IMG/VR virus record: IMGVR_UViG_3300046660_000219
Coordinates: 141,909 to 205,908 of that record
From: a virus
Strand: one strand, 5' to 3'
Length of the DNA stretch: 64,000 bases
Positions 12,815 through 50,691 of this stretch are shown piece by piece (the first letter of the stretch is position 1; each line of letters opens with the position of its first letter). A program made the translations under genes and the position numbers. Under the pieces are notes generated by a model. That model ran no database searches, was not told the DNA's origin, and saw nothing but the letters and a program-made list of their open reading frames with translations.

Positions 12815-12834
12815 GACATGTACCTTTTCTACAG

Positions 12835-12860
12835 AAAAGGGCGGGCTGTTAGGCCCGCCC
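12835..12860 (-). terminator. Strong intrinsic terminator closing the Ub-like operon
   Basis: GGGCGGGC (12839-12846) and GCCCGCCC (12853-12860) pair perfectly; the minus strand continues TTTTCT. It lies 36 nt beyond the stop of the ubiquitin-like gene. Confidence 0.9.
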
Positions 12861-12873
12861 TCCGAGTTCCTGC

Positions 12874-12897
12874 AACAGGGTGCTTGCGCGCCCTGTT
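12874..12897 (-). terminator. Second hairpin at the Ub-like gene stop
   Basis: AACAGGG (12874-12880) pairs with CCCTGTT (12891-12897); the stem includes the stop codon region of the ubiquitin-like gene. With the following hairpin it makes a double 3' end. Confidence 0.55.
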
Positions 12898-13426
12898 AGC
12901 CGCCGCGCGCTTGCGTAACGGTAGTGATGGTCTTGTTCTCGTTGATCACAGCCGTCTGCGTCAGCTTGGTGTTGTTGCTGTCACGCAGCATCAGGCCGGT
13001 CGGCGCGCCGGCCTTCTTGAGGTGATCGCCGAGCGTCTTGCCAGTGGACAGCGTGGACGATCCAGCGAACGAACCCGAGAAGGTCACGGTCACGTCTTCC
13101 GTGGTAGCGACAGCCGGAACAGCGGCCGGAGCTTCTTCCGTACCGTTTTCCGGCGGTTGGGCTTCACCTTCCGCGACAGCTTCCGTTTCCGCCGTCTGTT
13201 CCGTGACGGGTTCCTCGGCGGCGACCGTTGCGGTTTCAGCGGCCGGAGCTTCTTCCGTGGTGGCTTCTTCCGACGCGGCGGCCACTTCTTCGGCGACCGG
13301 CTCTTCGGCGACGGGTGCGGCCGATTCTTGAGCCGACGTTTCGGCGCTCGTTTCGTTGGTGGCGGCGTTGGTCTCAGCGGTGTTTTCCGCCGCGCCGTTT
13401 TCCGGCGTTTCGTTTTGATCGGTCAT
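12896..13426 (-). CDS. Ubiquitin-like beta-grasp protein with C-terminal Gly-Gly
   Basis: 176 aa. Residues 1-110 are an unstructured Ala/Glu/Thr-rich acidic arm. Residues 111-174 read as a beta-grasp fold: strand VTVTFSGS, strand STLSTG, helix KTLGDHLKKAG, strand TGLMLRDS, and final strand KTITTVTQAR. The protein stops right after GG (175-176; codons GGC GGC TAA), the mature tail of ubiquitin, ThiS and MoaD, so no protease is needed to expose it. The layout matches the PRTRC-C/Prok_Ub kind of bacterial ubiquitin-like proteins. Encoded 55 nt downstream of the E1-like gene, last in the operon. Inferred role: the modifier that the E1-like enzyme activates. It could instead be a sulfur carrier, but no sulfur-pathway genes are near. 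Confidence 0.75.
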   Translation of the reverse strand: MTDQNETPENGAAENTAETNAATNETSAETSAQESAAPVAEEPVAEEVAAASEEATTEEAPAAETATVAAEEPVTEQTAETEAVAEGEAQPPENGTEEAPAAVPAVATTEDVTVTFSGSFAGSSTLSTGKTLGDHLKKAGAPTGLMLRDSNNTKLTQTAVINENKTITTVTQARGG

Positions 13427-13481
13427 GTGTAGTCCCTAGCTAGGTTGTTGTGTTGGTACGCTTACTATTAACGCAGCCGTC

Positions 13482-14201
13482 CTAAGCTGCGCGCAACACT
13501 GACGAAGGATATCGCTTCTTCAGTATCGTCCAGGCGGAGAGGTCAGCAATGACCTCGTTCGCTTGAAGCTTGTTGTTCAGGGCGTCCATGGCCAGACAAA
13601 TAGTAGTCTGGCTGGCGATCTGCGCCGTAGCCCCGATCGAAATGGTATTACCGCACGTGCCGATGTCGGCGGACGCTTCGGCGTCGTCGTACAGCATTTC
13701 ATAGTACGCGGCTTGTTCGCTCAAGTCAAACGGCCGGTAGGCGAAGCTCATAGCCGTGCGCCCGCTGGTCCTGGCGTCGTAGCCGACGCGGGTGTCGAAC
13801 ACCCATTCGACCTTGGGGTTAAGCTGACAGCCCTCTTGCGCGATCTGCTTACGGACCGTCATCGTGTCCACGCACATGAACACGAGATTGGCATAGACGC
13901 GCCCACCAAGATACCGTTTCTTGTGGCCAGCGATCTCGGTACCTGTGGCCTCATAAACGCGCTGGCGTAACGCATTCACCTTCAAGCGCTCAATATCATC
14001 AGGGCCATAAGGGTACTGGTTAGACAGGTTATGCGGTTCGACCACGTCGTCATCCCACACCGTGATGTTCTCCAGGCCCAGCTTAGCGAGACCCAGGACG
14101 ATGCTCGACCCAACAGCGCCCGCACCGATCACGAGGATCGACTTGTCGCTGAACTTGTGCGGATCGAATGCACTCAGGTGGCGTATCGTTTCAAGAGCCA
14201 T
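13482..14201 (-). CDS. E1/ThiF-like ubiquitin-activating enzyme (PRTRC ThiF-like)
   Basis: 239 aa, a minimal single-domain E1. Nucleotide-binding loop VIGAGAVGSS (24-33), acidic WDDDVVEPHNLSNQ (49-62, with the Asp and Asn/Gln pattern of adenylating E1s), Lys74 in ERLKVNAL, and FMCVDTMTVRK (108-117, CxD motif). Cys183 in DIGTCGN is the best candidate for the thioester cysteine; Cys202 is the alternative. The zinc CxxC pairs of MoeB/ThiF are absent, as in plasmid PRTRC ThiF proteins. Predicted reaction: ATP-dependent adenylation of the Gly-Gly tail of the neighbouring beta-grasp protein and transfer to a thiol. The ATG overlaps the stop of the HTH gene (TAATG). Confidence 0.85.
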   Translation of the reverse strand: MALETIRHLSAFDPHKFSDKSILVIGAGAVGSSIVLGLAKLGLENITVWDDDVVEPHNLSNQYPYGPDDIERLKVNALRQRVYEATGTEIAGHKKRYLGGRVYANLVFMCVDTMTVRKQIAQEGCQLNPKVEWVFDTRVGYDARTSGRTAMSFAYRPFDLSEQAAYYEMLYDDAEASADIGTCGNTISIGATAQIASQTTICLAMDALNNKLQANEVIADLSAWTILKKRYPSSVLRAA

Positions 14202-14494
14202 TAGCGGCGGCCTTTCTTTGCGGGGTTACCATTCTTGCGCGGTTCCTCTTTTGCGACGAACCGGCGAGCAAGATTGGCGATGTGGGGATGCGCCAGGGAA
14301 TTATCTTCGAACTCCACGGCTAAGTCAAGCGACGCTAAATGCAGCAATTGCTGGACCTTAATCGGCAAGTCTTCGATCCGACTCAACTCGATAGGATGAT
14401 ACGAGCGATCGGAAATGCCAAGTTTGTCCGCCATGGCTCGCTGGGTTAAACCCAGCTCACCACGCAGTTCGAAAAGTGTATTGAAGCGATACAT
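14201..14494 (-). CDS. XRE-type helix-turn-helix protein within the Ub-like operon
   Basis: 97 aa. LFELRGELGLTQRAMADKLG (7-26) followed by ISDRSYHPIELSRIE is a classic Cro/XRE HTH; the C-terminal tail is Lys/Arg-rich. Lies between the E2-like and E1-like genes and is translationally coupled to the E1 gene. Probable autoregulator of this operon; the palindrome GGCAAATTTGCC over the operon promoter is a natural candidate target, but that link is inferred. Confidence 0.75.
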   Translation of the reverse strand: MYRFNTLFELRGELGLTQRAMADKLGISDRSYHPIELSRIEDLPIKVQQLLHLASLDLAVEFEDNSLAHPHIANLARRFVAKEEPRKNGNPAKKGRR

Positions 14495-14531
14495 CGGAAA
14501 TCTCCTTCGACGATGAAGCTACTGTTACTAA

Positions 14532-16334
14532 TCAATCCTCGTCATCTTCATCGTCGTCAATTTCTCCCTCGTCATCCTCCATATCGTCTTCTTCATCCGC
14601 ATCGTCTTCTTCATCCTCTTCAGCGGCGAAGTCACCGTTCTCCCAGGTGCGCGGCGTGCCAGCGTCAGCCACAGCCTCGTCTTGGAAGTTACGCAACAGG
14701 CTGTCAGGACCATCTTCACCGAAGGTTCCGATAAGATGCTGCCACACACTTATGTGTACCTTTTTCGGAGGTTCTTTGGAGTCCGGTAAGAGCGACCACT
14801 TTCCAATATGATCCGTGTCGAATGTACGGTAGTACTCCATGATCGCCAAGATCAGGTTATAGTAGTCATTGGTGCGGATCGCTGACTCGAACAATCGATC
14901 GAATGAACCAACGCAACTACCGTGTGGATTACGATAGTCCTTGTTCGGCGACGCGATGTTACGAACGCGTACCGAACCTTCCGTACTGATTTGGATCTCG
15001 AAACGTCCGCAATAGCGCTCCGTCCTATCACGCATCGAAATGCCCAGCATGTTCTTGGTGACGACGATCATGCGAGACGGAGTGAGAGTAAGTGTGTCGA
15101 TTTCACCCATACCTTTAAGACGCTCGATAGATTCGCGCATGGCTCTTACGGTGTCGTCAGCCATGAGATTATAAGCACGTTCTGCGCCCTGGAATTTAGA
15201 GACCGCCTCTAGCATTTTCTTACGCAGCTTCTCCAATTCGTTCTGCGATTCCGCGTAGGTTGTTACGACGGATTTCGCGACGACTGCACCCCACCTAGCC
15301 AGAGACTCTTCCGACACGCCATCATTGGCTTCTAGCCGCTTCTCCAGCGCTAGTAGGAATGCGGCGTGGTTGGGGAACGTCGTGAAAATGACGGGCTTAT
15401 TATTACCCTGCACGGGCACGACAATGTAACCATGACGGAATGGTTCGCCATTAGCCAAGCGCACAGGAGGTGCGGCGTCGCGCGTGACCACGGCATCGAC
15501 GCTGGTGTTGCTTAATTTCGGTCGCGAAATAGTACGACGTGGTGTCACACCCTGCGCTTTAGGATCGGGTCGTTCATCTGACGGATCATAGACCAACGGA
15601 CGAAAACGCTCGCTAGCTTCTTGCCGCATGGCCGCGTGAAGATGCGGCGTCATGTGGTTGTCGAAGTGAATGCCTTCGAACACCACACCGTGAATGTACG
15701 TCGGATATGACGTGGAGCCGATGAAATCGGCATTGAACCGGTTTTCCCAGTTGAGAGTTTCACCACGATTAAAGGTATCACGCATCAATACCGGCATCAT
15801 GTAGCCGAATACCGTCAGACGCGTGGAATAACTACTCTTACGATCGCTCGTGCCCCAGTAAGAATAGTTGGCAAAAACCGTACCACCAGGGAGACGATTA
15901 CGCCACGACGCACGTAACGGGTCCGTGCCGCTGCGGACGTAGGACGAAGTATGCGGTGCTTGGTTGCGCGGCACGTCGTAGCCGTCATTGCCGTCAAGCG
16001 CCAGCACTTCCGTAAGCAAGGGTGACGGATTGATCACCGGGCATTCCGTCCGCTTAACCCAACCGTGAACCTGCGCCAGAGCCGGGATAAGGTAACGACG
16101 CTTCTCTGGCATTTCGTACGCATAGATCGGCAGCGTAGTCGTCGCTTGTAGTTGTTCCATCGTAAGCATGTTGGTAATGCGCGGATGGAACGGTGTGAAG
16201 GCCGGTGCGGGAAGGGTTTTGGCCTTCGTACCCTTCTTCGTGGTTGGATCCGTCTTAAGGTCAGCTTTAGAGAACTTGGCGCTAGCGCCTCCCACGGAAG
16301 GGACAGCTTTCAGGTAGGGGTTTGAACGAGCCAT
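14532..16334 (-). CDS. E2-like protein B (Ub-conjugating-like domain, 600 aa)
   Basis: Full-length paralogue of the gene to its right. After a 350 aa beta-rich N-terminal part (shared motifs EGIHF, PFRHGYIV) and a coiled coil (about 360-415), residues 420-515 read like an E2/UBC core: strands ERYCGRFEIQI and VRVRNIAS, then DYRNPHGSCVGS (466-477) and an LFESA...YYNLILAIMEYY helix. NPHGSC matches the HPN/HPH...C signature of eukaryotic and bacterial E2s, with Cys474 as the candidate thioester residue and His471 beside it. The last 35 residues are almost all Asp/Glu. GGAAATAGTAAC precedes the ATG. An alternative is that this is a structural domain that only resembles E2. Confidence 0.55.
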   Translation of the reverse strand: MARSNPYLKAVPSVGGASAKFSKADLKTDPTTKKGTKAKTLPAPAFTPFHPRITNMLTMEQLQATTTLPIYAYEMPEKRRYLIPALAQVHGWVKRTECPVINPSPLLTEVLALDGNDGYDVPRNQAPHTSSYVRSGTDPLRASWRNRLPGGTVFANYSYWGTSDRKSSYSTRLTVFGYMMPVLMRDTFNRGETLNWENRFNADFIGSTSYPTYIHGVVFEGIHFDNHMTPHLHAAMRQEASERFRPLVYDPSDERPDPKAQGVTPRRTISRPKLSNTSVDAVVTRDAAPPVRLANGEPFRHGYIVVPVQGNNKPVIFTTFPNHAAFLLALEKRLEANDGVSEESLARWGAVVAKSVVTTYAESQNELEKLRKKMLEAVSKFQGAERAYNLMADDTVRAMRESIERLKGMGEIDTLTLTPSRMIVVTKNMLGISMRDRTERYCGRFEIQISTEGSVRVRNIASPNKDYRNPHGSCVGSFDRLFESAIRTNDYYNLILAIMEYYRTFDTDHIGKWSLLPDSKEPPKKVHISVWQHLIGTFGEDGPDSLLRNFQDEAVADAGTPRTWENGDFAAEEDEEDDADEEDDMEDDEGEIDDDEDDED

Positions 16335-16364
16335 GTTACTATTTCCTCTAGCTAGATTCTGCGA

Positions 16365-18134
16365 TCAATATTCGTCGTAGGTGTCAGCGCTGCGACCGCT
16401 TTCGTAATCGTCTCGCAGCTTACCTTCGAATGAATACAGCGCCGACGTAAAGGCCGTGGCGATCGAACTACCGCCGCGCTTCTTGCGTGCCTTACCTTTA
16501 AATACGGCGCTATCCGGCCAATCACCGACGAGAACCTGCCAATCCGACTCATAGGTCTTTTCAGGCCGCTCCTTGCTCTTAGGCAGCAGATCCCACTTGT
16601 GCGTGTGGCCCTTGTCAAAGAAACGGTAGTACTCCATGCTGGATATCACGAGCTGATGGTAGTCCGACATGGCCAGCGCGGATTCGAAGATGCGGGAGAA
16701 CGAACCGACACAGCCGCCATGCGGATTACGGTAGTCCTTATGGGGTGCAGCGATGTTGCGGACACGCACGGCACTCGACAGATGGATTTGGATTTCCATC
16801 TGTCCGCAGTACCGTTCGTCACCGCTGTTGTCGTTGTAGCCCAACATGTCTTTGGAGACGATGATAAGGGTATCACCGTCACATGTCACCGACTCGATCT
16901 CACCAGCGTTGCGAATACGCTCCAGACTGACGTGTAACGTCTTGGCCGTGTCGTCGTTAGCTAGAGACAAGATGCGCTGTGCCGTCGCCCGTTCACCGGT
17001 CAACGTAAGCACCTCCGCCATCTTCTCTTCGATGCGTAGCGTGAGGTGATCGTAGGTGTCCTTAAGCGTGGATGTTACCCTTTGCGCCCAACGATCGGCG
17101 AAGACGTCCAGTACGTCACCGTCCGCGAGTTGCGGCACGCTAACGATACGATGCGTTCGCTCGTGCGCCGTAACGAAGCTCTCAAGCGACGGCGCAGTCG
17201 TAACGACGATCCGGTTGTCGATGACAATGTATCCGTGGCGAAACGGTACACCATTGGCTAGCGCCGGTGTATCGGCACAGCGCAGGGCGTGCACGTTGGA
17301 AAGTCGAGCGTGACGGTTGGTGCTATCCGTCAGCATTTCTTGGATAGAGCCTTGCGGCAGCTCAGAGACCGCCGCTTGCACGTCGCTCGCCAAGAACGAC
17401 AGGTCCCGAAACACGGCGTTAGCCTGGGCGACTACATGCGGGTTGTCGAGGTTGAAATGAATACCCTCGATGAGAACACCGCAGAAATAGGTAAGACGTC
17501 GATGGCTCGACGTGACGTAGTCGTGATTGCGCGAGTTCTCTAGAGCGATCATACCGTCTCGGCTTTGGAAGCACAGCGCCGGAATGGCCAGCCCATAGCC
17601 AAACAAGTTAAGGTAGCGATCATCTGTGTCCGGCTGGGACCACGGAATGAAGTAGCGCGCTAGAGAGCGCGAGTTTACACGCTCACGACAGAAGTCTAGC
17701 AAACTATCGTTTTCCGGATAGTCAGCATCCAAGGCTAGATTAAAGGTACGCGGCACAAGGAAGCACGGGTTCTCCGGACTGCTGGTCAGGGCGATGTAAT
17801 CGCGATCACGCGACACGTCGTCAGGCATGACACTCGTTTGCCACCCGTACGCCTTGGCCAGCAAGCGGAAGTTGGCACGCTCGCTCAGTTTCACCTCATG
17901 CAGATACACTTTCTTGAAATCCGCGCTGTACGGGCTGCGCTGGTCAACGGGCCGCAAATCAATGTGCGACTTGACCGTACGCGGCGTGCGTACCTTTTTA
18001 ATAGGTGACGGACTGCACGCCGCCGTAGCAGGATAATCCGGCGCGTCTCTAGTGGGGGCGGAGGTCTCTGTCATGGCTTCATTTGCGTAAATGCCAGCGA
18101 GCTTGAGCTTAGCGGAGGACTTCTGAGCAGCCAT
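16365..18134 (-). CDS. E2-like protein A (Ub-conjugating-like domain, 589 aa)
   Basis: First gene of the operon. Same architecture as protein B: N-terminal domain with VLIEGIHF and PFRHGYIVIDN, coiled coil (about 365-410), then ERYCGQMEIQI, VRVRNIAAPHKDYRNP and the motif NPHGGCVGS (470-478) with Cys475, followed by IFESALAMSDYHQLVISSM. It lacks the acidic tail of B and ends in a Gly/Ser/Lys segment. N-terminal 60 residues are low-complexity and basic. Cys, preceding His and flanking strands are conserved between the two copies, which argues for a catalytic role. Transcribed from the promoter at 18220-18247. Confidence 0.55.
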   Translation of the reverse strand: MAAQKSSAKLKLAGIYANEAMTETSAPTRDAPDYPATAACSPSPIKKVRTPRTVKSHIDLRPVDQRSPYSADFKKVYLHEVKLSERANFRLLAKAYGWQTSVMPDDVSRDRDYIALTSSPENPCFLVPRTFNLALDADYPENDSLLDFCRERVNSRSLARYFIPWSQPDTDDRYLNLFGYGLAIPALCFQSRDGMIALENSRNHDYVTSSHRRLTYFCGVLIEGIHFNLDNPHVVAQANAVFRDLSFLASDVQAAVSELPQGSIQEMLTDSTNRHARLSNVHALRCADTPALANGVPFRHGYIVIDNRIVVTTAPSLESFVTAHERTHRIVSVPQLADGDVLDVFADRWAQRVTSTLKDTYDHLTLRIEEKMAEVLTLTGERATAQRILSLANDDTAKTLHVSLERIRNAGEIESVTCDGDTLIIVSKDMLGYNDNSGDERYCGQMEIQIHLSSAVRVRNIAAPHKDYRNPHGGCVGSFSRIFESALAMSDYHQLVISSMEYYRFFDKGHTHKWDLLPKSKERPEKTYESDWQVLVGDWPDSAVFKGKARKKRGGSSIATAFTSALYSFEGKLRDDYESGRSADTYDEY

Positions 18135-18173
18135 GGCGTTGTGATCCCTTGTGTGGAAATAGCAGATAGCAGA

Positions 18174-18207
18174 ACGCCACGTCGTGTGGTTCGACGTGGC
18201 GTTTCAA
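18174..18207 (-). promoter_or_regulatory. Leader hairpin of the Ub-like operon
   Basis: AACGCCACGTCG and CGACGTGGCGTT form a perfect 12 bp stem with a 7 nt loop, between the promoter (18220-18247) and the first start codon (18134). There is no T-run, so it is more likely a 5'-stabilising or regulatory hairpin than a terminator. Confidence 0.6.
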
Positions 18208-18219
18208 ATGCGAAGACAC

Positions 18220-18250
18220 AGTATACAGGAATCGGCAAATTTGCCAATAC
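18220..18250 (-). promoter_or_regulatory. Promoter of the Ub-like operon with overlapping palindrome
   Basis: Minus strand TTGGCA (18242-18247), 16 nt, TATACT (18220-18225). GGCAAATTTGCC (18234-18245), a perfect 12 bp palindrome, overlaps the -35 box; elsewhere the same type of palindrome sits just upstream. A repressor site is likely. Confidence 0.75.
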
Positions 18251-18255
18251 CCCCG

Positions 18256-35122: not shown

Positions 35123-36409
35123 CTACGCCACCAGTGACAGACGCGGTTCCAATTTACCGCGTGTCAGGTACTTCTCTTCTAATGCTGACGCACCTAGCGG
35201 TAACAGGGGCACGACATGCTGGTCAAACCACCACTCTTCGCTAGCGTCAGGGAAGTAGGCCTTGTACATGCGTCGCGCTACTGTTTCATCGAGAGCCTTG
35301 ACCTCTTCGATCAAGCCAAAGCGGCCGGGACGCAACAGCGCAGGATCTAGTGTTTCCAGACGGTTTGTCGTAATAGCTAGCATACGACCTTCTCGCGAGG
35401 CAATCCCGTCGAAGGCGTTGAGTACACCACCAAGAGTAAGTTCCCCTTCGCGGCGCTCTTTCTTTTTCTCGTCAAGCAGCCCTTTTGTGGAGACACTACC
35501 CTTACGAGGAAGATCGTCGTCAGCTTTAGCGGCCTTGCGCTTGTGCACGACCTCATGCGTGTCGATGTCCTCAATCACACCAAAACCGTTCGGGCCGATA
35601 CCATTCACCGCCGATTGTAAGCCAGCGTCACCGCCAACCTGAGACAGATTGATGATGTAGATGGATCGGTTGATTGCACCAGCGAACGCCGCAATCAACG
35701 TGCTCTTGCCGGTACCGGGTTGGCCAAAGAAACAGTAGCCACGACGATATGGCGTTCCACGCGATCGGTAGACCTCTTTGCTGACGCAGAACTCCCGCAT
35801 GTCGTTGAGAATACGCGCCTTGGTCTCCTCATCCATGAAAATAGTATCTAGCGAGCGCTTGTACTTGTGATCGATCAATATGTAGCCCTTGCCGTCCCAG
35901 TAATGCACCTTCAGCGTATCCGTGCCTTCATGCAGATCTCGGGCGGCTTGAATCAGGTCGCGAATAGGCTGCTGAGAGCGCCCGATAGTGCGAAGAACGA
36001 TGTCCCCGCGCCGACGTCCTCCGAACAGTGAACCTAGGCCGCCCTCATCTTTAAAAACGCGGTTGATCAGGATGATGCTACCTTTATGCCAGATAACATG
36101 CCAGCCCGTACCGATCGTAACGCTCCACGTCCACTGCATTTGGCTGTAGTCGTAGTTTTCGGTCATCATGAGTTCGCGTGAGTTATTGGCCTTGTTCTCA
36201 CGTGCCAACCACGCGCTCATCATACCGTAAACGTCGTCTTCACTGTGCAGCGTCATGGTCACGGTGAAGAAATACAAGAACGCCGACCAGATTTTGGCGG
36301 GAACAGCCTTGAGGCTGTACGTGACCGTACCGGCGATGGTTGCACCAACCAAGCCCACTAGCATTTGGTTGGTCTGAAATTGGTTAGCTACCCAACTGAA
36401 AAGCGACAT
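35123..36409 (-). CDS. BCS1-like AAA ATPase
   Basis: 428 aa. N-terminal membrane-like segment (17-32), a beta-rich BCS1-N-like domain (about 45-190), then the AAA module: Walker A GQPGTGKST (229-237), Walker B GVIEDID (277-283), sensor-1 TTN (347-349), LLRPGRFG (359-366). A low-complexity Lys/Glu insertion (about 287-320) sits after Walker B. The mitochondrial family translocates folded proteins; in bacteria and giant phages such proteins are common but of unknown job. AGGAAATAGAG before the ATG. Confidence 0.85.
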   Translation of the reverse strand: MSLFSWVANQFQTNQMLVGLVGATIAGTVTYSLKAVPAKIWSAFLYFFTVTMTLHSEDDVYGMMSAWLARENKANNSRELMMTENYDYSQMQWTWSVTIGTGWHVIWHKGSIILINRVFKDEGGLGSLFGGRRRGDIVLRTIGRSQQPIRDLIQAARDLHEGTDTLKVHYWDGKGYILIDHKYKRSLDTIFMDEETKARILNDMREFCVSKEVYRSRGTPYRRGYCFFGQPGTGKSTLIAAFAGAINRSIYIINLSQVGGDAGLQSAVNGIGPNGFGVIEDIDTHEVVHKRKAAKADDDLPRKGSVSTKGLLDEKKKERREGELTLGGVLNAFDGIASREGRMLAITTNRLETLDPALLRPGRFGLIEEVKALDETVARRMYKAYFPDASEEWWFDQHVVPLLPLGASALEEKYLTRGKLEPRLSLVA

Positions 36410-47997: not shown

Positions 47998-49536
47998 TTA
48001 CGCGGCGGCGTTTCGTTGCACAATATGCCAATCCGGCTGACCATAGGTCAACGAATTGGGTGCGAAAGCTTTTTGGAAATCGTAGAGAACGAAAGCGTCG
48101 TCGTTCGCTGCCGTGCTGGTCGCCGCCGCGAAACTTAGGCCGTCAACCGTCCGATAGCAGTTAGCTGCGTTGTTCACATCGGCGAAACGATCGAACACAG
48201 TCTTACAGTAACCCTTGAACGACTTCTTGGTGCCGTCGTCGGTCTTGGGGTCTTTGAACAGCGCGCACTCGACGCCGTTAATGGTAGCGCCCGTGGCTTT
48301 CATTGCAAAACCCCAGGTGTCGCGGGTGTTGCACTGATAGGTGTACGACCCGATACCCAGTACGACGTTGTTCGACGCGAAACCCTTCGCTTCCAAGCGA
48401 ACGAAGATTTGTTCAGCGCGCGGCATGGTGATCGAGTCGCCGTAGATCAGGCCGATGTGCGAGTCGAGTTCTTCGTACCCTTTCGAATTGGTGGTCGTGC
48501 CGAACACTTCCGCAAGGAGTTCAACAGCACCCTTGAACGCAGGCGAACCGGGCTCGGCGTTCGGATCACCGCAGATGATATCGACAGGGTCGCCGCTGTC
48601 AGGACGGATCACCAGCTTACCGTTACGCGCCATGATCTTGCCCTTCAAGCGTGGCAAGATATCGGTCAACACGTTCCAGAAGTCCCAGGTGTCCGAGACG
48701 ATCGAGATGATGCCTTCTGGGTAAATGGTAAGTAGACGATCATACGTCTCGAATTCCGTGGACGAACCACCAGCGCACATGACGCTGTGTTCCGTGGCCG
48801 GGACCGTTCCGTACTGCGACATGTCGAAACCGGTGTACAGTTGTTCAGCGGCGAACAGTGCGGGAATGGTATCCGTGCCGTTGAAGAACAACAGATGGCC
48901 GATGTTGTAGACCATGGCCATCTCCGAACCGCCCATCATGCCGCGCATAGAAAAGTCATGGCATTGGAAGGGAACGAAGCTGCGATCGTTACAGGTTAGA
49001 TCCGCCCAATGGTCGCAGAGCTTGCGGTAGTTGCGAGCAATGGTAGCCATGGTTTGCGAGCCCCACATGAGGTTCGACAGTTCGGTCTCGACGTAGTTGG
49101 TCAACCACGCGAAGTCGTCATGCGTGTTGAAGATGGTGAAGTGCACGACGCCGGTTCGCGTTACCGTTCCTTCGGGAAGGTGAAGGACGTTCAGCGGCAG
49201 ATAGCCCAACGTGTGCAGGGCTTCAACATGCGACAGGTCGGGATTGTCTTGCTTATAGTACGCCTTGTAGAAAGCGTACATTTCTTGCATGACCTCGACG
49301 TTAGGGCGTGCGAACCATTTCGCGAACTCTTCCACGATCGTGCGCGCAGCGTACGAGAAGCCGAAGAACACGACTTCCGGTTCTTGCTGCCAGAGTTGCC
49401 GGTTAGTGAGACGCGCGATCTTGTCGCTACGCGGCGTCCACGTGGACAGCAGTCGGGTCATTCCAGTAGGGAATTGAAACTTGTGTTGACCCTTGTAGCC
49501 GTCAGCCAGCAGCATAGCCGGAATGAAGAATTGCAT
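47998..49536 (-). CDS. nadV: Nicotinamide phosphoribosyltransferase family (NAMPT/NadV or Namat)
   Basis: 512 aa, full length. PATEHSVM (246-253, active-site His250), IRPDSGDPVDI (310-320), IYGDSI (364-369), CNTRDTWGFAMKAT (402-415) and KDPKTDDGTKKS (428-439) follow the NAMPT layout, including the Arg/Asp that bind ribose and pyrophosphate. Classical product is NMN from nicotinamide and PRPP; in phage NARP1 systems the homologue instead attaches nicotinamide to ADP-ribose pyrophosphate. Follows the PRPP-synthetase-like gene at once, and no NMN adenylyltransferase was seen in the window. Confidence 0.9.
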   Translation of the reverse strand: MQFFIPAMLLADGYKGQHKFQFPTGMTRLLSTWTPRSDKIARLTNRQLWQQEPEVVFFGFSYAARTIVEEFAKWFARPNVEVMQEMYAFYKAYYKQDNPDLSHVEALHTLGYLPLNVLHLPEGTVTRTGVVHFTIFNTHDDFAWLTNYVETELSNLMWGSQTMATIARNYRKLCDHWADLTCNDRSFVPFQCHDFSMRGMMGGSEMAMVYNIGHLLFFNGTDTIPALFAAEQLYTGFDMSQYGTVPATEHSVMCAGGSSTEFETYDRLLTIYPEGIISIVSDTWDFWNVLTDILPRLKGKIMARNGKLVIRPDSGDPVDIICGDPNAEPGSPAFKGAVELLAEVFGTTTNSKGYEELDSHIGLIYGDSITMPRAEQIFVRLEAKGFASNNVVLGIGSYTYQCNTRDTWGFAMKATGATINGVECALFKDPKTDDGTKKSFKGYCKTVFDRFADVNNAANCYRTVDGLSFAAATSTAANDDAFVLYDFQKAFAPNSLTYGQPDWHIVQRNAAA

Positions 49537-49577
49537 GTTTGAGTGTCCCTTTGATGTGAGCGGTTAGAAATGGTATA

Positions 49578-50477
49578 TTATTGATTGCTGTAATCGAACA
49601 GCGACAGCACTTCAGTATAATGCTTCAGCAGCTCGTCTTTGCCTTGTGAGAAGAGGCCATGCGTGACGTAGAGCCGCAGGTTGTAGAAAGTGTACGTCGA
49701 GCGTAACAGCTCGGCGATGCTGACAAACGTTCGTCCGCCGTCGCACAGATCATCGATGACCCAGAACGATGCGCCCGACGGTTGGATATCTACCGTTACG
49801 CCATCCGGCGTTTGCGCCGAAACGATCTTGTGGCCAACGATACGCCCTTCAAGGTCGCGCATCTTATCAGCGTATATGATCCCCGTGCCGTAGTGCTTGG
49901 AGAAGGCTTCGGCGCGGGCCTTAGCGCCTTCATCCACGGCCACCACGAAGTCGCGCGACGATGGCTGGTAACCGTTCTCGCGTTCCATCGTCGCGATGAA
50001 ACAATCTAACGACGACATAACAGTAAGTGAAGACAGCTCAACGCCGTCATGGCCGTCCGTCGACTTAATTGCATTATGCAACACTTTTACGAATACATCG
50101 CTGTGTGGGTCATACACAACAATGTTCCAAAAAACAGTATGCAGCAGAAGTTTTGCCGTAACATCCGCCGCATTAACTTCACCGGGCTTCTTCTGTTTAT
50201 CCGCACGTTGGTCGGGAAACGTTTGGATAACTAGGGTGTGACCTTTCCAGCCGCCGACGTAGTGGGACGGAGGAAGTAGAGCGCCGATCTGAAACAACGC
50301 AAAGACCGCCTGCGGAAGGGTAGTTTTCATTGTTACCGTTATTTCATTAACACTAAACGGTGCGCGGAAGGCAAACGAGCCATCCGGATATTGATCGACG
50401 TCCAGGGCGACAGGCGCACCAGAGACCGTTTCGTGCATCGTGAACCACGTGCGCGCGTCGGGATTGTTGATCGGCAT
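49578..50477 (-). CDS. prs: PRPP synthetase-like (Prs; possible ADP-ribose pyrophosphate synthetase)
   Basis: 299 aa from ATG 50477. NIVVYDPHSDVF (118-129), VAVDEGAKARAEAF (179-192) and VIDDLCDGGRTF (240-251), the last being the PRPP-binding loop of phosphoribosyl enzymes, are all in the correct order for Prs. Usual reaction: ribose 5-phosphate + ATP to PRPP + AMP; homologues paired with NAMPT-like genes may use ADP-ribose. The N-terminal 60 residues are divergent. Directly upstream of the NAMPT-like gene in the same operon. Confidence 0.85.
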   Translation of the reverse strand: MPINNPDARTWFTMHETVSGAPVALDVDQYPDGSFAFRAPFSVNEITVTMKTTLPQAVFALFQIGALLPPSHYVGGWKGHTLVIQTFPDQRADKQKKPGEVNAADVTAKLLLHTVFWNIVVYDPHSDVFVKVLHNAIKSTDGHDGVELSSLTVMSSLDCFIATMERENGYQPSSRDFVVAVDEGAKARAEAFSKHYGTGIIYADKMRDLEGRIVGHKIVSAQTPDGVTVDIQPSGASFWVIDDLCDGGRTFVSIAELLRSTYTFYNLRLYVTHGLFSQGKDELLKHYTEVLSLFDYSNQ

Positions 50478-50490
50478 GGTGTATTGAACC

Positions 50491-50691
50491 TCAGTGAAGG
50501 GTTGCGCCAATGGCGGCAACGGCGAAAAAGGTAGCTGGTCCCGCAGCGGCTATCATAAAGACTAAATAGAAGGCGCTGAAGGCCCACGGGCTCATCGTAC
50601 TGATATACTTGTCGCACTTGCACGCCACAACCATCGACAGATACGACCACAGAATTGTGGCCACGGTAAATCCAAAGCAAGGCCAATTCAT
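50491..50691 (-). CDS. Two-helix membrane protein, 66 aa
   Basis: TVATILWSYLSMVVAC and FSAFYLVFMIAAAGPATFFAV are two membrane helices. Start after AAGGTAGCTACC. Confidence 0.6.
   Translation of the reverse strand: MNWPCFGFTVATILWSYLSMVVACKCDKYISTMSPWAFSAFYLVFMIAAAGPATFFAVAAIGATLH

Follow-up and report, generated by a model that had tools for sequence, protein, structure and literature searches.

Bacterial ubiquitin-like (Ub-like) conjugation is known mainly as a form of anti-phage defence, and a complete cascade encoded by a phage would turn these roles round; does the locus described here specify such a cascade, and what might the phage do with it? The window, by which we mean the whole stretch of 64,000 nucleotides that was analysed, is taken from a viral record of 205,908 bases, of which it occupies positions 141909-205908. 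Since this record codes for a large terminase, a tail sheath, a DnaB helicase, a topoisomerase II and an NAD-dependent DNA ligase, it can be assigned to a tailed phage of jumbo size. A first-pass annotation, made from the sequence, had proposed that five genes at 12896-18134 on the minus strand form a single Ub-like conjugation operon between one promoter and one terminator. All five ORFs were recovered at these places, in the order E2-like A, E2-like B, HTH, E1 and Ub-like, with intergenic gaps of 30, 37, 0 (a one-base start/stop overlap) and 55 nt, and the proposed numbering of the candidate catalytic cysteines (475, 474 and 183) was correct when checked on the translations. The features are listed below.

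18220-18247, minus strand: sigma-70-like promoter, TTGGCA-16-TATACT, overlapping a palindrome at 18228-18251
18173-18203, no strand: perfect 12-bp inverted repeat, AACGCCACGTCG-7-CGACGTGGCGTT, a candidate operator between the promoter and the first gene
16365-18134, minus strand: E2-like protein A, 589 aa; candidate catalytic Cys475 in RNPHGGCVG, codon 16710-16712
14532-16334, minus strand: E2-like protein B, 600 aa; candidate catalytic Cys474 in RNPHGSCVG, codon 14913-14915
14201-14494, minus strand: small HTH protein, Xre/HTH_19-like (2.6e-6), 97 aa
13482-14201, minus strand: E1/ThiF-like activating enzyme, 239 aa; candidate catalytic Cys183 in GTCGN, codon 13653-13655
12896-13426, minus strand: ubiquitin-like modifier, 176 aa; C-terminal TTVTQARGG
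12831-12860, minus strand: intrinsic terminator, GGGCGGGC-CTAACA-GCCCGCCC followed by TTTTCTGT, read directly from the sequence

Both regulatory elements named in the first-pass annotation can be seen in the sequence: the promoter at 18247-18220, in a region where promoter-like matches are in no excess (4, against 2.7 in shuffles), and the terminator at about 12860-12831, whose 8-bp G+C hairpin is visible by eye and was not listed by an automated scan. The inverted repeat at 18173-18203 is the sole place in the window with both arms, and the second palindrome (18228-18251) lies over the promoter; judged by their sequence, both are candidate operators for the HTH protein, a probable autoregulator of the operon that would repress it through these promoter palindromes.

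Across Pfam, NCBIfam and PHROGs, the only domain models that fit proteins of the operon were ThiF (8e-19) and HTH_19, the latter falling below its gathering score, and no relevant match was obtained for either long protein or for the Ub-like protein. The two long proteins therefore match no known virion family, PHROGs included, a possibility that had been raised against the proposal.

Elsewhere in the window, the phage encodes a BCS1-like AAA ATPase (35123-36409; BCS1_N 8.5e-18 and AAA 5.5e-12), from a family best known as a mitochondrial translocase. A nicotinate phosphoribosyltransferase family protein (1.8e-38) lies beside a weak phosphoribosyl-synthetase-like protein at 47998-50519, and the two genes probably constitute, by sequence similarity, a phage NAD salvage pair.

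The E1-like enzyme and the modifier

On sequence grounds, it is certain that the operon encodes an E1 of the ThiF/MoeB/UBA fold: the protein matches Pfam ThiF at E 8e-19 (68 bits against a cut-off of 28.1), and a family alignment searched against the PDB has E. coli ThiF as its best match (4e-18), followed by UBA1, UBA5, MoeB, Cap2 and BubCD. The enzyme is a stand-alone protein of 239 aa, unfused to an E2, and its Cys183 is invariant among the E1s of close relatives. The usual motif in ThiF, MoeB and UBA1 is SNLxRQ; this E1 family reads HNLSNQ, with Asn in place of the Arg, and its nucleotide binding may therefore differ.

The first 105 or so aa of the modifier form an N-terminal extension that is acidic, of low complexity and without Lys; the rest is a beta-grasp domain (residues 106-176, nt 12896-13111) which ends ARGG, so that the Gly-Gly lies at the exposed C-terminus, as had been claimed. 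The claim of a beta-grasp fold has also stood up well, in that an AF2 model of residues 106-176 with nine relatives has a pLDDT of 89.4 and the order strand-strand-helix-strand-strand, and nearly all of its 50 best PDB matches are ubiquitin, SUMO, NEDD8 or other Ub-like proteins, a bacterial E1-E2-Ubl complex among them (probability about 1.0, E 2e-3 to 2e-2). At the profile level, the modifier family matches SAMP2 (4e-5), and also MoaD and ThiS. In three distant phages, namely that of the window, the viral contig L002 and the cultured phage PhiXhv-12, the modifier tail is exactly Gly-Gly (3/3), and all three modifiers join an acidic low-complexity extension, with 0, 0 and 1 lysines respectively, to a basic beta-grasp domain. 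Because this scarcity of lysine accompanies a general lack of positive charge, we do not claim selection on lysine.

The two long E2-like proteins

E2-like proteins A and B are 37% identical to each other and both keep PHGxC. Protein A comprises an N-terminal region with LIEGIHF, a coiled coil and a C-terminal E2-like domain, and protein B, which has an acidic C-terminal tail (DDDEDDED), is 35% identical to the sole E2-like protein of L002, with YCG, VRxRNIA, YRNPHxxCVG and MEYYR conserved. Long proteins of relatives, encoded next to E1 genes that were reached through E1 alone, end in a PH...CxGN domain, and in an alignment of 18 E2-like domains one Gly and the Cys are invariant. When the phage set and the set from operons bearing a JAB peptidase (reached through E1 only) were aligned separately and compared using hhalign, they matched at E 3e-10 with a score of 71, whereas none of 30 column shuffles scored above 15.6. 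The Cys motif resembles both the active-site motif of PRTRC_B (APY.NVW..G.ICTGN) and that of Prok-E2_B members (RPHV..G.LCY). By hhalign, the JAB-less group alone scored 21.3 against PRTRC_B versus 24.8 in shuffles, within the shuffled range, and shuffles were exceeded only with JAB-bearing relatives in the profile. With hmmscan and hmmsearch, the E2-like proteins matched no known E2 family.

The full-length model of protein B is poor overall (mean pLDDT 54) and good at residues 400-530, where a coiled coil (342-407) is followed by five or six strands (412-459), the Cys loop and two helices (476-503). As modelled, this strand-Cys-helix order in the confident part (412-530) is an E2-like topology. 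Foldseek searches with the full-length model gave no significant match in the PDB or BFVD, E2 enzymes recurring in the list only at E 0.8-3, and for that reason we hold a UBC fold around Cys474, suggested by motif and model, to be probable rather than shown. Thus, the E2-like identity proposed for both proteins in the first-pass annotation finds support in the Cys motif, in profile homology and in model topology, but not in the fold search.

The pair of long proteins is not peculiar to this operon: L005, L007, L019 and L020 have tandem E2-like genes as well. In the second copies of L019 and L020, the residues normally found around the Cys have been lost (ACVDE, ICPDE), and from their sequence these copies look like inactive partners. 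A tree groups both copies in the window with L002 (98/97) and places B nearer to L002 (94/83); on sequence, this hints that the duplication predates the split from L002.

Relatives and the missing deconjugase

L002, a viral contig of 140.9 kb, carries E2-E1-Ub with the same modifier tail as the window, and E2-like and E1 genes are found in the cultured jumbo phages Xanthomonas PhiXhv-12/15/16 and Erwinia Ep032. The E1 of L002 is 58% identical to that of the window and those of the cultured phages 34%, values near the identities of the corresponding terminases (48% for L002's contig, 34% for PhiXhv), which is compatible with long vertical residence without proving it. Among the four cultured phages, the E2-like proteins share 99-100% identity. 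The Ub-like gene was read in only one of them, PhiXhv-12, where the order is Ub-like (ending KASGG), an 892-aa E2-like protein and E1, between DNA ligase and topoisomerase genes. This 892-aa protein (L060:4316-6994) shares the EGIHFNV and RNIAAP elements, contains 36 Cys and is rich in cysteine at both its N- and its C-terminal end; from their composition, these ends are possibly zinc-binding and E3-like. In the cultured phages, the E1 genes are annotated as 'thiamine biosynthesis protein', and the rest as hypothetical or not at all. The HTH gene, previously counted as part of the pathway, was not seen in the PhiXhv cassette and is of doubtful presence in L002, which places it outside the conserved core.

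Independent viruses share this gene set, with its tails and motifs conserved, and the operon is therefore more than a chance arrangement. Sequence and models together support a phage operon for Ub-like conjugation, as first proposed, with the E1 certain, the beta-grasp fold well predicted and the UBC fold of the E2-like proteins only plausible.

Its distribution is sporadic: 91 phage records match the window's phage in their terminase, but searches of the same collection with E1 and E2 found the cassette in only 4. No hit came from tblastn searches of the phage collection with E2-like B or of plasmids with E2-like A or E1, from E2-like A alone against viral contigs, or from the E2 alignment against the genome collection, and a scan with the modifier alignment found only L002's contig. 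A degenerate DNA search for YRNPH..CVG returned L057, which we rejected as a chance match in a repetitive 1006-aa ORF.

Distant relatives in other viruses, Melainabacteria and Patescibacteria combine E2-like, JAB, E1 and Ub-like neighbours. Operons with the order E2-like - JAB - E1 - Ub-like (L017-L028) come from MAGs of Melainabacteria, Myxococcales, Clostridia, Patescibacteria and Saccharibacteria, and may be chromosomal, prophage or contaminating phage DNA. In L008 (8665-12614), eight small genes follow E2-JAB-E1, and their products share a similar C-terminal tail (VIGGI, VIGSL, IVGGL, KEGI, VVGSI, LIGAI, RGYL, VVGGI), so that a shared C-terminal tag adjoins a Ub-like operon with no obvious separate modifier gene. 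Two viral contigs encode a reverse transcriptase with YADD about 0.3-1.2 kb downstream of JAB-E1 (L004:1877-2980 and L006:9904-11043; RVT_1 1.5e-19 for L006).

A separate arrangement was observed in crAss-like phages (Steigviridae/Asinivirinae) and bajarodcaudo virus 1 (L061, L062, L080-L083), where a conserved block runs primase - Ub-like (..KKIKSGA) - 370-430-aa protein - JAB - E1 - uracil-DNA glycosylase, with the JAB annotated as 'metalloprotease' and the E1 as 'thiamine biosynthesis protein'; in cr106_1 (L082), the Ub position holds only a short ORF. The Ub and E1 profiles match above shuffles. The 370-430-aa proteins, which have an invariant YMHSH...C.G.GP, were rejected as E2 homologues, their profile match being not above noise. 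Judged by its sequence, the block appears to be another Ub-like system carried by phages, in this case gut phages, and one that includes a JAB.

The first-pass annotation had reported no JAB-type deconjugase in the window, and this extends to the three records of the phage subgroup: neither PF14464 nor a profile derived from the relatives' JABs detected one in the whole 205.9-kb record, which may be incomplete, or in L002's contig, which is likewise not known to be complete, and the JAB profile detected none in the PhiXhv-12 record; one of the three is described as complete. The relatives-derived profile, which matches JAMM1 (1e-4) / Rpn11, does recover the JABs of other records. Most distant relatives carry a JAB, and several of their modifiers bear residues after the Gly (KGN, RGN, RGNS), which fits a processing role for the JAB. 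This link is a tendency only, because L026 has a JAB and yet its modifier also ends GG.

Possible functions and comparison with known systems

From these sequences and models, we consider it quite likely that the operon specifies a phage Ub-like conjugation cascade, in which the modifier passes from E1 via E2 to a target lysine and is not taken off again. The E1 would adenylate the exposed C-terminal Gly of the modifier, which would then pass, probably via Cys183, to Cys474/Cys475 of the E2-like proteins, and these would transfer it to lysines of targets chosen by their variable N-terminal part and coiled coil. With each conjugation event, a target would gain a basic beta-grasp domain bearing an acidic tail that is about 105 residues long and probably disordered. 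Processing would not be needed because the modifier already ends Gly-Gly, and the phage would not remove the tag because it encodes no JAB. The target would be a host or phage protein, and the tagging of such proteins during infection is the reading that we favour. We are also inclined, with less assurance, to see here a jumbo-phage cascade of its own subtype, defined by a ready-made Gly-Gly modifier whose acidic tail is almost free of lysine, long multidomain E2-like proteins (those of PhiXhv with cysteine-rich ends that could serve as a built-in E3), no deconjugase and a lasting modification of host or phage proteins during infection.

The first-pass annotation had suggested, as hypotheses, self-tagging or counter-defence, and two of the alternatives are likewise statements of purpose. 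The phage might tag its own virion or replication proteins, for assembly, solubility or the control of replication. The location of the PhiXhv cassette near replication genes (DNA ligase, topoisomerase) points this way, as does that of the related crAss-like E1-JAB block between primase and uracil-DNA glycosylase; against it, no substrate is visible in the sequence and topoisomerase II lies about 16 kb from the operon in the window's phage, so that we regard auto-tagging as possible but doubtful. We think it unlikely that the genes serve inter-phage defence, a Bil-like superinfection exclusion in which structural proteins of competing phages are tagged, although this could hold together with the conjugation reading. 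Bil acts in anti-phage defence, and the sporadic spread among phages with related terminases resembles that of accessory genes. No defence-specific model matched, however, except via the generic E1 fold, no JAB was found, and the PhiXhv set occupies no obvious accessory region. Bacterial Ub-like conjugation by Cap2 likewise acts against phages (PMC10097602).

The remaining alternatives concern the chemistry. In a sulfur-carrier or small-molecule pathway, an E1 of ThiF/MoeB/MccB type would lead to a thiocarboxylated or adenylated Gly-Gly protein, and the long proteins would be accessory enzymes; the nearness of the E1 to E. coli ThiF, the thiamine annotation in cultured phages and the likeness of the modifier profile to ThiS/MoaD/SAMP2 agree with this, but beside the cassettes we saw no thiazole, molybdopterin or sulfur-transfer gene, and in relatives the same E1 is accompanied by invariant-Cys E2-like proteins and JAB peptidases, which makes such a pathway improbable. 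Equally improbable is a scheme in which the long proteins have no relationship to E2 and only the E1 and the Ub-like protein come together, in a covalent or non-covalent complex; the lack of a significant fold match or a matching E2 family model is set against the invariant Cys motif, the E2-like topology of the confidently modelled part and a conserved linkage to E1, JAB and Ub-like genes.

Our search of open-access papers turned up no description of a Ub-like cascade encoded in full by a phage, and priority is unproven. If the conjugation reading is true, a bacterial virus would run ubiquitin-like signalling, and the JAB-less subtype would show the minimum parts for conjugation. What the phage tags, and why, is directly testable because the same genes occur in the cultured phages PhiXhv-12/15/16 and Ep032.

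Among known systems, the PRTRC cassette (ParB-related, ThiF-related) appears to match row 6d of Iyer et al. 2006 (PMC1779556). It too has separate Ub-like, E1 and E2-like genes and is often found on mobile replicons, and its E2 motif resembles the APHV..G.aC.GN of the wider family here. The window's operon differs in that its E1 reaches only a partial match of 44.2 bits to PRTRC_ThiF (cut-off 144.75), no NCBIfam match to PRTRC B (E2) or PRTRC C (Ub) was obtained, no JAB (PRTRC A) was found in the 205.9-kb record, the E2-like proteins here have 490-890 aa as against about 250, and the modifier tail is different. Bil, a bacterial ISG15-like system (BilA Ub, BilB JAB, BilC E2, BilD E1), likewise has separate modifier, E2 and E1 genes, a likeness at the level of gene content, whereas the set here is phage-borne, has long E2-like proteins and was found to have no JAB (BilB). 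With CBASS Cap2/Cap3 and 6A-MBL E1-E2-JAB fusions, the operon shares the E1 fold, its E1 matching NCBIfam 6A-MBL across 82 residues (E 2e-14) and PADLOC E1-E2 at 2e-11, and also a motif of PH-x-C type, which Prok-E2_B members have in their E2 part; unlike in CBASS type II (Cap2/Cap3), the E1 is unfused and the modifier is a separate beta-grasp protein, and a nucleotidyltransferase model (for CD-NTase) is matched by 0/5 operon proteins. The archaeal SAMP/UbaA/JAMM1 system, to our knowledge described without a dedicated E2, is approached through the SAMP2 match of the modifier profile and the JAMM1 match of the relatives' JAB, but E2-like proteins are encoded here and a JAB is not. The E2-JAB-E1-Ub operons of L004-L009 and L017-L028 have E1s of 25-42% identity and a homologous E2-like domain; most have a JAB and several have tails with KGN/RGN plus extra residues that may need processing, whereas modifiers of the phage subgroup end in GG and no JAB is present. 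The window's operon is therefore best read as a phage-borne variant, lacking a deconjugase, of the prokaryotic Ub-like conjugation systems. On the features compared it differs from PRTRC and Cap2, and by analogy it would most likely work like Bil, Bub and Cap2.
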